Shown here: positions 8,238 to 16,829 of the stretch, piece by piece | Layout of the letters: every line of letters starts with the position of its first letter | Numbering within the stretch: position 1 is the first letter of the stretch | From: a virus | Strand: one strand, 5' to 3' | DNA length: 23,845 bases | IMG/VR virus record: IMGVR_UViG_3300000116_000227 | Location: 1-23,845 of that record | Position numbers and translations under genes: made by a program | Notes under the pieces: model-generated | Told to the model about the DNA's origin: nothing | Databases searched by the model: none | Seen by the model: only the letters and a program-made list of their open reading frames with translations

Positions 8238-8474
8238 CTACGAGTCAGCAAGACGCTTCATACCATCGGCATTCTCGGTGTAAAGACGATCAAGAGCGGC
8301 TAAGGCAGCAGCCTCCTTTTCACCAACATCGTCCTGATTGCTCAGGTCAAGGCTGGCTTTGCAGTATTCCTTCCAGGCTTGCAATCTGGCAGTTTCCTTT
8401 TTGATAGCTACCGTTTCTTCCCGCACCTGTTTGATGCGACGATCAATCGGTTCTAACCAGTTGTGTTCAGACAT
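8238..8474 (-). CDS. Small coiled-coil protein, last gene of the accessory array
   Basis: The 78-residue protein (MSEHNWLEPIDRRIKQVREE) is almost entirely charged helix and probably forms a coiled coil over residues 10-45. Its start follows the upstream TAG by exactly 14 nt (TCACCTTCTTTTCT), a pyrimidine-rich leader without Shine-Dalgarno. The same spacing and a similar leader precede two other MSE-type starts in the array. The first 14 residues and the leader are duplicated at 10561-10624, where the rest of the gene is missing. No function is recognised. Confidence 0.6.
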   Translation of the reverse strand: MSEHNWLEPIDRRIKQVREETVAIKKETARLQAWKEYCKASLDLSNQDDVGEKEAAALAALDRLYTENADGMKRLADS

Positions 8475-8488
8475 AGAAAAGAAGGTGA
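8430..8488. repeat. Dispersed repeat, copy A (start of the MSEHN gene)
   Basis: About 60 bp covering the 5' end and leader of the 8238-8474 gene recurs at 10561-10624 with scattered mismatches (gcgatcaatcggttctagcc versus cgatcaatcggttctaacc). Confidence 0.7.
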
Positions 8489-8737
8489 CTACTGGGCTTC
8501 AAGTTCGGTGGCGATGGCGAGGATCTGATCGCGCATAACGCAACGCAACCGCAATGCCTGGGTCGAGAAGTTGTCTTTATCCCAGTCGTCGGGCTCCGGC
8601 ACCACCTGATCCGCAGCAGCTCGCAGGGCGGCAGCAGCAATCCAGCGAGATTCATTGAGGCAGTCGTCGGGGCCATAGCATTGAGCACCGTTGGCAGCGT
8701 CCAGCACTGCCTGCGCGGCGGGTGAAAGTTCAGCCAT
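8489..8737 (-). CDS. LSPAAQAVLDA-family small protein, copy 1
   Basis: ATG 8737 is chosen because the paralogue at 9330-9560 begins at the matching Met; an open frame continues upstream but is out of family. The 82-residue protein opens MAELSPAAQAVLDA, contains IAAAALRAAADQVVPE in the middle, and ends ILAIATELEAQ. The family appears to be common in picocyanobacteria and their phages (recollection, not a search); its function is unknown. ATGGCTGA gives an 8-nt overlap with the WQP gene, indicating coupling. Its final 26 bases plus the following spacer are identical to those of the paralogue. Confidence 0.7.
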   Translation of the reverse strand: MAELSPAAQAVLDAANGAQCYGPDDCLNESRWIAAAALRAAADQVVPEPDDWDKDNFSTQALRLRCVMRDQILAIATELEAQ

Positions 8738-8933
8738 CCAAGTTCTCCTCACTTGTTGGTTCAGGTAAGTTGGGGACGTTTGGTAGTAGCTGCCAAAAGC
8801 ATGGGTAGAAGAACTCCCCTTCGCGGTTTTCCCAGTGACGACATTCACTGTGGATGATGTCAATGCAGTCGTAGTCAGTGGCCAAGATCTCTGTGCCGTC
8901 AAGTGGAGCAGTATCAATGGGCTGCCAGTTCAT
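8730..8933 (-). CDS. DUF551-like WQPIDTAPLDGTE small protein
   Basis: The 67-residue protein begins MNWQPIDTAPLDGTEILATDY, the hallmark opening of a family of small phage proteins often annotated DUF551, whose role is unknown. The middle is rich in aromatic residues, His and Cys (HSECRHWENREGEFFYPCFW), consistent with a compact fold. The start overlaps the previous stop as TAATG, and the end overlaps the next start by 8 nt. It is therefore the middle gene of a three-gene translationally coupled cassette. In the paralogous cassette this middle slot is held by an unrelated gene. Confidence 0.75.
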   Translation of the reverse strand: MNWQPIDTAPLDGTEILATDYDCIDIIHSECRHWENREGEFFYPCFWQLLPNVPNLPEPTSEENLDG

Positions 8934-9310
8934 TAGGGTTCCTCACTTTTGTAGTCGGGTAGTTGTTCAAGGGCGCGGCGAATGCAAGACGAATCCACGT
9001 TTTCAAACTGCAGCAATGCTTGCAGTTCCTTCAGCTTCAACAGCGCCTGCTCCTTCAGGTTCGGCGGCTTGGGGCGGCGGGCGGCGCGCAAAGCCGGAAT
9101 GGCTTTGCCGTCGTCGCCCCAGTAACCCATGCGTATCATCCACTCACAGCACGCCTTCAGCTCAGTGTCTGCGCCCCATTGAGCGGCCTTTTCTGAGACG
9201 TATTGCATCCACTCCACGGGATCACGAGGGTTAATCCTCTGCGCTTGCTGAGCCCATAGCCGACGCAACTCCGGCGGTACGGTGATGGGGTGTTGTTGTT
9301 CTTGTGTCAT
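8933..9310 (-). CDS. MTQ-HPITxPPEL family small protein, copy 1
   Basis: This 125-residue protein is the paralogue of the one at 9720-10043. Shared blocks are HPIT.PPEL at the start, AA(Q/R)WG(A/S)D.EL(K/E)ACCEW in the middle, then ARRPKPP(N/S)LKEQALL and RRALEQL near the end. I recall this family from cyanophages and picocyanobacteria as repeated copies with no known function. The conserved double Cys (ACCEW) and the ARRPKPP linker suggest a conserved two-part fold. The leader is 19 nt from the preceding TAG to ATG, ending CTAATCACCC, the same as the other copy. First gene of cassette 2. Confidence 0.72.
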   Translation of the reverse strand: MTQEQQHPITVPPELRRLWAQQAQRINPRDPVEWMQYVSEKAAQWGADTELKACCEWMIRMGYWGDDGKAIPALRAARRPKPPNLKEQALLKLKELQALLQFENVDSSCIRRALEQLPDYKSEEP

Positions 9311-9329
9311 GGGTGATTAGCGAAGGTGA

Positions 9330-9560
9330 CTACTGGGCTTCAAGTTCAGTGGCGATGTCGATGAGTTTATTCCTGGCAAAGGCGGCACCGTCCATTTCTG
9401 AGACTGTATAAGGGGTTAATTGATCCGCAGCAACTCGCAGGGCGGCGGCAATGCAATCTCGATCAGGGTTGCGAGTAAGCCAAGTCACTTCGTGCATCTC
9501 ATCTTGCTTGGCGTCGAACGCATCAAGCACCGCCTGAGCAGCGAGTGAAAGTTCAGACAT
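9330..9560 (-). CDS. LSLAAQAVLDA-family small protein, copy 2
   Basis: The 76-residue protein starts at ATG 9560, the position matching the paralogue at 8489-8737. The N terminus MSELSLAAQAVLDAF, middle CIAAALRVAADQL and end DIATELEAQ are conserved, while the segment between is different, so the copies are diverged rather than recent duplicates. It is preceded by the 14-nt leader TCGCTTCCACTTCT after the TAG of the gene upstream. It is the last gene of cassette 1. Function unknown. Confidence 0.68.
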   Translation of the reverse strand: MSELSLAAQAVLDAFDAKQDEMHEVTWLTRNPDRDCIAAALRVAADQLTPYTVSEMDGAAFARNKLIDIATELEAQ

Positions 9561-9574
9561 AGAAGTGGAAGCGA

Positions 9575-9727
9575 CTACTCGGTAATCCATGTAGCTACAG
9601 CCCTAGCAAACGCGGTCATTTGGCCGTTTTCGATTGCTGCGGTAACGGTGAGGTCATCTGTGTCTGGTCCCCACCAGAAGGTTGCAAACTCATCGAGATC
9701 GTCATCAGTGTGCTGGAGTTCAGTCAT
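9575..9727 (-). CDS. Acidic 50-residue protein, middle gene of cassette 1
   Basis: ATG 9727 overlaps the end of the upstream MTQQ gene by 8 nt (ATGACTGA), the same arrangement as ATGGCTGA in cassette 2. The 50 residues are acidic (MTELQHTDDDLDEFATFWWG, then TAFARAVATWITE) with three Trp. No family is recognised. Small acidic proteins of this kind can be anti-host or DNA-mimic factors, but nothing here shows that. It takes the place that the WQP gene holds in the other cassette. Confidence 0.55.
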   Translation of the reverse strand: MTELQHTDDDLDEFATFWWGPDTDDLTVTAAIENGQMTAFARAVATWITE

Positions 9728-10043
9728 CGAGTTGCTCCAGTGCGCGGCGGATGGTGTCATGAGCCACTCCGCAGTCGCGGTTAGGCGGCAGCTTGTTAAG
9801 AGCCAGCAGCGCCTGCTCCTTCAAGCTTGGTGGCTTGGGACGACGTGCGGCAATAAGTGCCTCATGTTCGTGCTCGTGACCTTCTAACTTCAGCCACTCA
9901 CAGCACGCCTCGAGCTCCTGATCGCTGCCCCAGCGTGCGGCTTGGATGGCGACGTGGTCAGCGGTAAGTCCGCGTTCGCACTCTTCAGTTAGCCACTGCC
10001 GCACCAACTCAGGCGGCGGGGTGATGGGATGTTGTTGTGTCAT
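9720..10043 (-). CDS. MTQ-HPITxPPEL family small protein, copy 2
   Basis: The 107-residue paralogue of the 8933-9310 product keeps HPITPPPEL, AARWGSDQELEACCEWLK, ARRPKPPSLKEQALLAL and TIRRALEQL. It has a His/Glu-rich insertion (GHEHEHEAL) after the CCEW block. The start follows the TAA of the HNH remnant by 19 nt (CCATTACCACTAATCACCC), the same length and 3' sequence as the other copy's leader. First gene of cassette 1; function unknown. Confidence 0.7.
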   Translation of the reverse strand: MTQQHPITPPPELVRQWLTEECERGLTADHVAIQAARWGSDQELEACCEWLKLEGHEHEHEALIAARRPKPPSLKEQALLALNKLPPNRDCGVAHDTIRRALEQLDD

Positions 10044-10062
10044 GGGTGATTAGTGGTAATGG

Positions 10063-10284
10063 TTACGAGCCGTGGCTTTTCATGTACTTTACGACCTTTT
10101 CAAATTCTGAAGCCGTGCCATTGGACTTGAGCACATTAGCACGAAGGGGGATTACGGCAATGTTTCCAGGCTCATAACCACGGTCGTTGTTACTCCTGTC
10201 GATAGTGGTTTCATAGGCATCCAATATGGTCTGTGCGGCATCTGATCGCCACTGCTTGAGTTCGGGGAGAGGGTTAGATATGAT
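10063..10284 (-). pseudogene. Remnant of an HNH endonuclease, no start codon
   Basis: The frame between the stop of the upstream gene and TAA 10063 reads NPLPELKQWRSDAAQTILDA, then TIDRSNNDRGYEPGNIAVI, then LRANVLKSNGTASEF. This is the typical C-terminal half of phage HNH endonucleases (xIDRIDNxxGYxxGNxxVIxxRANxxK). There is no ATG and no zinc half. The open frame starts immediately and in phase after the TGA of the 10285-10476 gene. It is probably a decayed homing endonuclease left by an earlier insertion. Read-through of that TGA would fuse the two products. Confidence 0.7.
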
Positions 10285-10476
10285 TCAGCGGTGAATTGTC
10301 ATTTCGTATCCTTCAGCAGCGAGAGATGCAGACAATGCCATCGCCAACTGCTGCGTGTAGCTGCGCGTTTTATGGGTGGTGAAGTCTGTGAAGGTCCACC
10401 GATTTGTGTTGTTGGTCCAGATGGCGAGGCGGTCGTCACCCTTCTGGAAGTAAACAGTGGTGTTAGTGTTGGTCAT
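10285..10476 (-). CDS. 63-residue protein of unknown function
   Basis: ATG 10476 has a good ribosome site, GGAGGA, in contrast to the other array genes. The protein (MTNTNTTVYFQKGDDRLAIW, RWTFTDFTTHKTRSYTQQLA, LAAEGYEMTIHR) looks like a small beta-alpha fold: two or three strands followed by a helix. It overlaps the truncated MSEHD gene by 4 nt (ATGA). No family recognised. Confidence 0.6.
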   Translation of the reverse strand: MTNTNTTVYFQKGDDRLAIWTNNTNRWTFTDFTTHKTRSYTQQLAMALSASLAAEGYEMTIHR

Positions 10477-10610
10477 CGTCGATCCTCCGGTCGGCGGTCA
10501 TGGGGCGGGGCGTTGGTGCGCCGCTGCCCTACCACACTACCACGCATTGAAAAGGGCGGTGTGTACCGGATGCGGCGATCAATCGGTTCTAGCCAGTCGT
10601 GTTCAGACAT
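10473..10610 (-). pseudogene. Truncated second copy of the MSEH-WLEPIDRR gene
   Basis: ATG 10610 begins MSEHDWLEPIDRRIR, 14 residues nearly identical to the start of the 8238-8474 protein. It then diverges into an Arg/Pro-rich sequence with no resemblance (YTPPFSMRGSVVGQRR...), ending after 45 residues at a TGA that overlaps the next ATG. The leader (14 nt after a TAG) is also duplicated. This is best read as a recombined start of the gene joined to foreign sequence. It might still be translated and serve to couple the downstream gene. Confidence 0.5.
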
Positions 10611-10624
10611 AGAAGTGGTAATGA
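10561..10624. repeat. Dispersed repeat, copy B (start of the truncated MSEHD gene)
   Basis: Same orientation as copy A, about 2.1 kb away. Similarity stops abruptly at codon 14-15, marking a recombination breakpoint. The two copies bracket the cassette array. Confidence 0.7.
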
Positions 10625-10626
10625 CT

Positions 10627-10665
10627 AAAAAATTTGATGGCCTGAGCGTGAGACGCCTCGTCAGG
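10627..10665 (-). terminator. Possible terminator after thyX
   Basis: On the minus strand the sequence forms a hairpin with outer stem CCTGA/TCAGG and inner stem GCGT/ACGC around a CTC loop. It is followed eight bases later by a T-run. It lies between the thyX stop and the accessory array. The bulge and the gap before the T-run make it weaker than the other terminators. Confidence 0.4.
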
Positions 10666-10713: not shown

Positions 10714-11421
10714 TCAACCGATTTCTAAATTCTCGATGACACGCCAGCCTTCGACAGCGGGATTGTCCGAACGAAGAAGCGCTTTAATCGAAGTCGGCAC
10801 ATAAGCAGATAATGCGCGGCCAATGTCATGGGCGATGTACTTATGTTCTTTCTGCGTACCGTTGGCTCCCCGGAGACCAACATAAAAAATCCAATCCCTT
10901 AGTGTGCCTTGCATGTGGAGCTTTGTCGGCGTACACATCGGAAGAATATTTCGAGCGCATTCCCGTGCCACGCCGGACTCAAGAAGCGTCTGATATACAT
11001 CCTCGATCTCCGAAAAGACCTCTTTGATGCGCTGTTTCAAGACCTCCTTAACGGTCTCATCCCCAAATTCAAGACTGTTTTGGCGATCTTTAAAATCCTG
11101 AGCTCTAAGCTCGAAGTCCCAACAGTTAGCCCAGGCGTCATCCAGTACTTTATCAGGCGTGCAGTAGCGCTGCGAAAGCTCCTGATAATGAAAAGATCTG
11201 TGACGAATTATCTGAGCTGAAATAGCGCGACTCGTAACGATCTCAAACGAAGCACAAACTTGCTCGAATATACTCCAGTGCCCTTCGTTAATACAGAAGG
11301 TCAGCAGCTTCTCGAACTCAGCCCGATCAGGATTCTTGGTGCTGACCCGAGCGTGCCGGGCTACAACAGCCTCAGGATCCTGAGTGATCCAATCAAGCTT
11401 CGCGTTGTGCAAACTGTTCAC
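10714..11421 (-). CDS. thyX: Flavin-dependent thymidylate synthase ThyX
   Basis: The 235-residue protein carries the ThyX signature RHRSFHYQELSQR (residues 73-85, RHRx7SxR). It also has ARHARVSTKN near the N terminus, the GHWSIFEQV block (substrate/FAD region) and a C-terminal AHDIGRALSAY helix. ThyX makes dTMP from dUMP using methylene-tetrahydrofolate and FAD/NADPH; phages carry it to supply thymidine for their replication. Length matches the usual 210-250 residues. ATG 11421 lies inside the end of the previous small gene (29-nt overlap). It is the last intact gene of the block before the accessory array. Confidence 0.95.
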   Translation of the reverse strand: MNSLHNAKLDWITQDPEAVVARHARVSTKNPDRAEFEKLLTFCINEGHWSIFEQVCASFEIVTSRAISAQIIRHRSFHYQELSQRYCTPDKVLDDAWANCWDFELRAQDFKDRQNSLEFGDETVKEVLKQRIKEVFSEIEDVYQTLLESGVARECARNILPMCTPTKLHMQGTLRDWIFYVGLRGANGTQKEHKYIAHDIGRALSAYVPTSIKALLRSDNPAVEGWRVIENLEIG

Positions 11422-12195: not shown

Positions 12196-12420
12196 TTATT
12201 TGTTGTCCCCGCGATTAGCGCTTCTAGACCGTACCCTTATGTTAGCGGAGGAATTGTTATGAGGGTTGCGATCACGATGATCCACATCCTGGCCATCTCT
12301 CTTATGGACCCGACCCTGCTTTTCCAGATGACGACGCGCCTTATTACGCGCCGCTCGCCGCTTCTTTTGTTTCTCAGTGCCTTGATATTCCCTATATTCT
12401 TTATCGTAATCTCTAGCCAT
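12196..12420 (-). CDS. Small HNH-type basic protein (MARDYxxEY family)
   Basis: This 74-residue, highly basic protein follows a familiar phage pattern: MARDYDKEYREYQGTEKQKK, RRAARNKARR, then a compact HNH-like segment DGQDVDHRDRNPHNNSSANI and RVRSRSANR. His48 (DVDH), Asn55 and Asn60 fit the H-N-N arrangement. Similar proteins in phages are annotated HNH endonuclease or hypothetical; I regard a DNA-binding or nicking role as plausible. It has its own extended -10 promoter upstream. Confidence 0.7.
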   Translation of the reverse strand: MARDYDKEYREYQGTEKQKKRRAARNKARRHLEKQGRVHKRDGQDVDHRDRNPHNNSSANIRVRSRSANRGDNK

Positions 12421-16436: not shown

Positions 16437-16829
16437 CTACGCGGCGTCTTCGAGCGCTGGGAGTAACAACGGTTCCTTACATAGCGTTTCGTACTCCTTA
16501 GCCGACTCAGATTCGTTGTGATCACGATTGACCCATTCCAGTATTTTTAATTCTTTATCTTGTGTCCAGAATGTCTGGGATCGGTACCAAATATCCCAGC
16601 GTTCATTGCTTTTAGACAAATTACAATCACCGCACGAAGGTATAAGATTAGATCGTACGGTCATGCCGCCCTTTGATTTAGGTACGACGTGATCTAAAGT
16701 CCTAGGGTCCGGTTTTTCGCAGTAAGCGCACCTGCTTTCCCACGCTGCAAAAATATCCTTCCTGAACCTCTTGCGTGCTGTAGATCGCGATAAACATTGT
16801 AACTCGAATAGTAAATCACGTTCCGTCAC
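16437..16829 (-). CDS. HNH endonuclease
   Basis: The 130-residue protein (GTG start) has a complete HNH domain. The zinc pair CAYC (Cys34, Cys37) is followed by LDHVVPKSKGG with Asp46-His47, NLIPSCGDCN with Asn61, Cys66 and Cys69, and then LSKSN. The N terminus is basic (STARKRFRKDIF). This is the common free-standing type that cuts or nicks DNA and can act as a homing endonuclease. It sits alone between structural genes with its own promoter, which fits a mobile gene inserted into the late region. Confidence 0.88.
   Translation of the reverse strand: MTERDLLFELQCLSRSTARKRFRKDIFAAWESRCAYCEKPDPRTLDHVVPKSKGGMTVRSNLIPSCGDCNLSKSNERWDIWYRSQTFWTQDKELKILEWVNRDHNESESAKEYETLCKEPLLLPALEDAA

Follow-up and report, generated by a model that had tools for sequence, protein, structure and literature searches.

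The window analysed here is the whole of an IMG/VR virus record (IMGVR_UViG_3300000116_000227; 23,845 bases), and its minus strand carries an array of very small genes. Two sets of three genes stand at the core of this array, M1-X1-L1 (10043-9330) and M2-middle gene-L2 (9310-8489), where M and L designate two protein families and X1 the acidic middle gene of the first set. The features are listed below, V1 to V3 being variable segments within a gene and "box" a short conserved element ahead of start codons.

10611..10627, minus: box TAGTCATTACCACTTCT ahead of a truncated MSEH copy (ATG at 10610); from sequence, strict-pattern match
10473..10610, minus: short open reading frame (ORF) of 45 residues with the duplicated MSEHDWLEPIDRRI start, remainder unrelated; from sequence
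10044..10065, minus: box TAACCATTACCACTAATCACCC ahead of M1; pattern match, 0.02 expected in shuffles
9720..10043, minus: M1 (phrog_32006), mosaic gene; profile match, segments common to other genes
9945..9992, minus: V1 of M1, variable segment also in locus L116; segment comparison
9852..9893, minus: V2 of M1, variable segment also in L116, L009, L050 and L006; segment comparison
9753..9806, minus: V3 of M1, variable segment also in L008; segment comparison
9720..9727, minus: 8-nucleotide (nt) joint ATGACTGA with the M1 stop TGA and the X1 start ATG, GGAG ahead; from sequence
9575..9727, minus: X1, acidic middle gene of 50 residues; relatives with and without X1
9561..9577, minus: box TAGTCGCTTCCACTTCT ahead of L1, its TAG being the X1 stop codon; from sequence, by eye
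9330..9560, minus: L1 (LS.AAQAVLDA family); hidden Markov model (HMM)
9311..9332, minus: box TAGTCACCTTCGCTAATCACCC ahead of M2; pattern match
8933..9310, minus: M2 (phrog_32006), mosaic gene with V1 at 9191-9253, V2 at 9086-9139 and V3 at 8984-9040; profile match and segment comparison
8730..8933, minus: MNWQPIDTAPLDGTEILA middle gene of set 2; body recurs in L139
8730..8737, minus: 8-nt joint ATGGCTGA from the middle gene to L2; from sequence
8489..8737, minus: L2 (LS.AAQAVLDA family), mosaic gene with a V1 of type ..YGPDDCLNESRWIA; segment comparison
8475..8491, minus: box TAGTCACCTTCTTTTCT ahead of the MSEH gene, its TAG being the L2 stop codon; from sequence, by eye
8238..8474, minus: MSEH gene, chimera of two families; segment matches

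The order, strand and coordinates of the two sets agreed with an earlier note on this DNA. M1 and M2 were paralogues (54% identity, E 1.4e-23) that both matched the phrog_32006 profile (E 6.8e-28 over residues 1-107 and E 3e-26 over residues 4-119, respectively), and L1 and L2 belonged to a single HMM family, whose search gave 119 matches initially and 153 once converged. The middle genes were unrelated in the two sets, as the note had stated, and the overlaps were as it described them: set 2 formed a chain (1-nt overlap between M2 and the middle gene, 8-nt overlap ATGGCTGA between the middle gene and L2), while in set 1 only the first two genes overlapped (8 nt, ATGACTGA) and L1 followed X1 after a gap of 14 nt. 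The label "DUF551-like" given to the middle gene of set 2 (8730-8933) could not be confirmed, with no Pfam match at E 0.01 and no NCBIfam match. The duplicated MSEH start said to bracket the array is real (10610 and 8474), although the copy at 10610 is a 45-residue ORF unrelated after MSEHxWLEPIDRRI. The note had overlooked the box, which precedes five genes of the window, two instances being recognized by pattern (0.02 expected in shuffles) and the other three by eye.

Two kinds of joint connected the genes. The first was the 8-nt stop/start overlap, which ended 111 of 218 M genes, 88 of them with ATGACTGA. Nearly all starts at this overlap (105/111) opened a frame of at least 30 residues, and a GGAG, GAGG or AGGA motif lay 8-22 nt upstream in 96 of the 111. 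As the note had proposed listing the genes that follow M, this listing was carried out and yielded 21 blastp clusters, the largest uniting M, L and the FRALCAEL family, hence at least 21 families, distinct by blastp, that share precisely this overlap.

The second joint was the box TAGTCANNNNCACT, followed by either TCT-ATG or AATCACCC-ATG. It was bipartite (TAGTCA-N4-CACT), with fixed positions and few discrete N4 types, and its TAG or TAA was the stop codon of the upstream gene. It thus gave an upstream stop codon and a spacer to the next ATG, without an obvious Shine-Dalgarno sequence. The TCT-ATG variant (gap 14) preceded L, X1 and MSEH genes and the AATCACCC-ATG variant (gap 19) preceded M; by reading, the latter with its ATG contained stops in three frames (TAG, cacTAA, ccaTGA). 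In 103 non-redundant loci picked by protein alone, 45 boxes were found on the array strand and 4 on the other strand, with 0.7 expected, and 36 of the 45 closed a 60-nt open frame. Across all loci, including those fetched by the box pattern, 141 distinct junctions connected 52 upstream to 29 downstream clusters in 86 pairs; the second pattern also matched by chance in places, and reading frame and length served as filters on its matches. One and the same upstream gene end preceded M in certain contigs and L or other genes elsewhere. Two further leaders were observed ahead of M, TCTACACACTACGAGGTTCAACA-ATG (L030, L053, L056, L069, L103 and L105) and GTACCTAACATAAAAACTTTTATGTA-ATG (L020, L029, L089 and L110).

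No covering match to the box core was found in any Synechococcus phage among 50,697 isolate phage records. Sigma-70-like sites in the window numbered 2 (1.3 expected), none of them at a box, the five window boxes folded no better than shuffles (z from -0.24 to 1.27), and no structure or Rfam match was found in the window. From sequence alone, three candidate identities of the box were also dropped: a T7-like promoter (no G at +1), a palindromic operator (no kept half-sites in the TCT variant) and a resemblance to the 16S tail.

At the gene level, HMM searches of 144 loci placed M and L on the same strand in many orders, including M-L, M-M-L, M-X-L and L-L. The two sets were not always neighbours elsewhere, an arrangement that the earlier note counted against exchange but which is read here as free reshuffling of the array. 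Close relatives differed by exactly one module, X1 among them. In L043, X1 lay between ATGACTGA and the box, while it was missing from L053, whose flanks were 90-99% identical. An M-L pair (601 or 547 base pairs, bp), running from the ATG to just before the stop, distinguished L024 and L048 from L221, with flanks 92-98% identical, and of L166 and L186, one had an L gene between two copies of ATGACTGA where the other kept a single copy. These comparisons support the exchange slot proposed in the note, as one M-flanked slot held many families and relatives differed by the middle gene alone.

The exchanged genes were themselves modular. X1 began with MTE where the overlap joint preceded it and with MSE or MPE behind the box. 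In L143 its body was also the C-terminal module of a larger protein of the FRALCAEL type; the opening residues thus come from the joint, and the body can move between contexts. In L139, likewise, the body of the set 2 middle gene recurred as a C-terminal module within a larger protein. Proteins of the FRALCAEL..RAALAQPEPQGPTDEE type (L143, L139 and other loci) carried varied C-terminal modules, some of which are free-standing genes in the window, and different C-terminal modules were also seen by inspection in the F array family, the Y array family being inspected as well. Residues 1-31 of the MSEH gene matched L386, L197 and L189, and residues 31-52 matched L192, L263 and L288.

A second level of modularity was found inside M, whose three variable segments (about 20, 15 and 19 codons) lie between four blocks (about 17, 16, 15 and 10 codons). 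Protein identity was about 78% in the blocks and 19-30% in the variable segments. The blocks were codon-frozen, the probability of the same codon given the same residue being 0.59-0.70, compared to 0.32-0.40 expected from the codon use of the M variable segments. Most other families from these loci gave 0.39-0.52, apart from two further array families with 0.71-0.73 and a small set, 17 pairs at 0.85, that is possibly a shadow ORF.

Most distinct M genes (231/252) had at least one segment in common with another gene. Where two genes shared V1, V2 or V3, the median DNA identity was 0.90-0.96 in that segment and 0.52-0.57 in the other two, which are thus unrelated. When one segment was shared, a given other segment was shared in only 6% of cases among the 252 distinct genes and in 10% among 47 M genes fetched afterwards as a replication, compared to 48-93% for the same linkage measure in eight control families (computed on thirds of the alignment, a design that is not identical). 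The Chao1 estimate of the segment library was 228-324 per slot, a rough lower bound. The two M genes of the window belonged to this pattern: M1 shared both V1 and V2 with L116, the carriers of its V2 (L116, L009, L050 and L006) mostly had different V1 and V3, and its V3 occurred in L008 with different V1 and V2, while V1 of M2 was common to L160 and its V2 to L050.

The L family appears mosaic too. In the 113 of 205 L genes that were parsed, V1 of type ..YGPDDCLNESRWIA was combined with many V2, and both segments were shared 11 times (4.1 expected). The earlier note regarded M and L as constant flanks providing homology; both are in fact shuffled internally, and the homology resides in short standard joints and frozen blocks instead of whole genes. 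Two irregular genes were also recorded, namely an M start in L168 (MTQQHPITPPPPSLKEQALD) that is a fusion by deletion from block B1 to block B3, and an L gene in L089/L090 that continues, in a different frame, into the 3' block of M.

Segment replacement was also visible at single loci. Homologous DNA flanked M at both ends in 21 distinct non-identical pairs, which overlap in loci and represent perhaps six to eight independent events; one pair was similar in all three segments and the others differed by whole segments. Loci L057 and L186, from different metagenomes, were collinear over 6.6 kilobases (kb) and 100% identical for 700 bp on either side of M, with all three M segments replaced. V1 was kept between L373 and L337 while V2 and V3 differed, and V3 was kept among L331, L360, L347 and L332 while V1 and V2 differed. 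In a genomic hot-spot test over a narrow span, 9 of 21 replaced segments fell in M, which made up 3.3% of aligned bases, a result that is only supportive as the loci were selected for M.

M was found in at least 594 IMG/VR stretches and in three cultured phages, S-CBS2, S-H1 and S-RIP1 (Autographiviridae), all infecting Synechococcus. Among 84,980 bacterial and archaeal genomes, in a scan limited to a pattern, M turned up in only two contigs, both from metagenome-assembled genomes; M is therefore essentially a virus family, and a cellular origin was rejected. S-CBS2 carried the chain M-ATGACTGA-L-ATGACTGA-gp67-ATGGGTAG-gp68, and in S-H1 the gene AZB50524 (L004:3750-4001) fused block B1 (MTEQHPITPPPEL) to an unrelated body of 70 residues. 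Their segments recurred in other loci (S-RIP1 V3 in L079, S-CBS2 V2 in L207 and L076, S-H1 V3 in L309), in genes whose remaining segments differed.

Concerning function, L, X1, the set 2 middle gene and the MSEH gene had no match in the family libraries, and eight array proteins had no match to known anti-phage defence in PADLOC. AlphaFold2 predicted five helices for M (predicted local distance difference test score, pLDDT, 82; predicted template modelling score, pTM, 0.54) and three for L (pLDDT 80; pTM 0.70), and neither model matched a solved fold. By residue position in these models, the variable segments would lie mainly at helix ends and inter-helix turns. That phages alike in all else differ in their combinations of segments suggests that the proteins recognize variable partners or escape them; these might be host defences, host targets or rival phages, and a host- or competitor-directed role is our best guess for these small proteins.

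The array lies alongside ThyX (10714-11421), with a D5-type primase/helicase and an exonuclease (phrog_298) nearby. The window was also rich in endonuclease-like genes: two HNH endonuclease-like genes and one helix-turn-helix protein with a weak endonuclease match were found at 12196-12420, 16437-16829 and 302-862. Just upstream of the M1 box, an ORF of 53 residues (10063-10224, minus strand) matched only the C-terminal half of the HNH/endonuclease family phrog_3322 (profile positions 106-151 of 162) and looks like a truncated endonuclease remnant.

Taken with the joints, gene combinations, segment mosaicism and allelic swaps observed, the array is, on balance, probably part of a shared, recombining pool of accessory mini-genes in picocyanobacterial phages that is modular at two levels. 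Whole small genes would be gained, lost and swapped at the 8-nt ATGNCTGA stop/start overlap, with its upstream GGAG, and at the TAGTCANNNNCACT box, whereas M, and apparently L, would exchange internal segments of about 15-20 codons that lie between blocks of about 10-17 codons near-identical in DNA. The machinery is likely to be homologous or short-homology recombination between co-infecting phages through these joints and blocks, in a context that includes the exonuclease of the window phage and the annotated ExoVIII, RusA and DprA-like genes adjoining the S-CBS2 array. The products would most likely be diversified small helical proteins that target or evade variable host or competitor factors.

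Several points weigh against this interpretation. The box was present in only 34 of the 103 protein-selected loci (about a third), most of the data are metagenome contigs, and V1 and V2 of M were shared together by 26 pairs where 3.8 were expected, a residual linkage that is as expected for recent common descent. Searches of the array proteins against Pfam, NCBIfam, PADLOC, PDB sequences and folds returned no function.

A stronger proposal, which we put forward tentatively, is that M and L constitute a dedicated combinatorial diversification system, whose frozen blocks would be maintained as recombination sites and whose products would track host defences or competitors. If true, new small binding proteins would be drawn from a library of at least a few hundred segments per slot, a virus-side analogue of an immune receptor repertoire.

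Passive shuffling is a further possibility, though a doubtful one: dispensable mini-genes in a tolerated zone would be reshuffled with no selected function, and the joints would persist by permitting translation. Huge gene turnover, unrelated genes in each slot and presence/absence polymorphism are all consistent with it, and the ORFan region of cyanophage S-PM2, which is costly and deletable, offers an experimental precedent (PMC4503421). Open frames, start/stop joints and block protein conservation nevertheless persist across very diverse phages, and M is spread over phages as different as S-RIP1, S-CBS2 and S-H1. It is unlikely that the blocks and box owe their conservation mainly to a role as signals in the nucleic acid (coupling of translation, a leader without Shine-Dalgarno sequence, or an RNA or DNA binding site) with shuffling as a by-product: the bipartite box, the GGAG-like motif and the codon freezing would fit such signals, but the window has neither structure, Rfam match nor promoter excess, and mid-gene blocks far from any start are also frozen. 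Assembly chimeras, in which blocks and joints mislead assemblers into stitching different phages, are highly improbable even though nearly all loci are metagenome contigs and blocks of about 30-50 nt are common to many genes in one sample, because the cultured Synechococcus phages S-CBS2, S-H1 and S-RIP1 have the same joints (as an 8-nt chain), library segments and a block fusion, 50 M genes occurred in more than one locus (many from different IMG samples, some being overlapping slices of one contig), and the L057/L186 pair would require misjoins at both gene ends within 6.6 kb of matching DNA; the mosaics are thus probably not artefacts.

A shared pool of recombining mini-genes has partial parallels among known systems. 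Work by Arbiol (2010) and Comeau (2014) reportedly describes promoter plus stem-loop elements (PeSLs) as mobile regulatory cassettes of T4-like phages. Short repeated intergenic elements tied to small-ORF exchange between relatives are found here as well. The array joint differs in holding the upstream stop codon, without a predicted stem-loop or an excess of promoters (scored as sigma-70-like sites), and in being partly just an 8-nt stop/start overlap, with shuffling inside genes too. In lambdoid phages, conserved short boundary or linker sequences permit module exchange. The short conserved gene-boundary sequences are alike, but here a single set of joints is used by dozens of unrelated tiny genes and determines how the following protein begins (MTE, MSE or MPE on the same body). 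Integron gene cassettes also line up small genes on one strand, every gene ending with a short common element; the boxes of the array, in contrast, have no attC-like structure, the joint includes the stop codon, and no integrase was found among the window proteins scanned (part of the window ORFs). Joint-mediated shuffling of small ORFs by the PeSLs of T4-like phages is cited in PMC4503421.

Within genes, the array differs from diversity-generating retroelements in that whole segments (0.90-0.96 DNA identity elsewhere) are replaced, with no adenine-biased point variation, and no reverse transcriptase was found among the same scanned proteins. Intragenic module exchange is known for larger genes, and phage tail fibres and type I HsdS specificity subunits are module-shuffled. 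Modules and mosaic alleles are also described for Plasmodium DBLMSP (PMC13088805). Conserved stretches that part exchangeable variable modules, and mosaic alleles, are common to all of these, whereas the proteins here are only about 80-125 residues long, and their three segments, each of 15-20 residues, belong to a large library. No equivalent of 15-20-residue segment exchange in proteins of about 110 residues with nucleotide-frozen blocks was found in the literature searched, which left most subscription journals outside.

Phage genomes are full of tiny genes, and the array lets their assembly rules be read as a joint vocabulary with interchangeable genes and segments. It looks like a natural way to combine small viral proteins, with near-identical viruses carrying quite different versions. 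The segment map predicts which parts of the proteins would meet a variable partner, near-identical phages that differ in M alone represent natural swap experiments, and the purpose of the mini-genes is directly testable in relatives of cultured Synechococcus phages.

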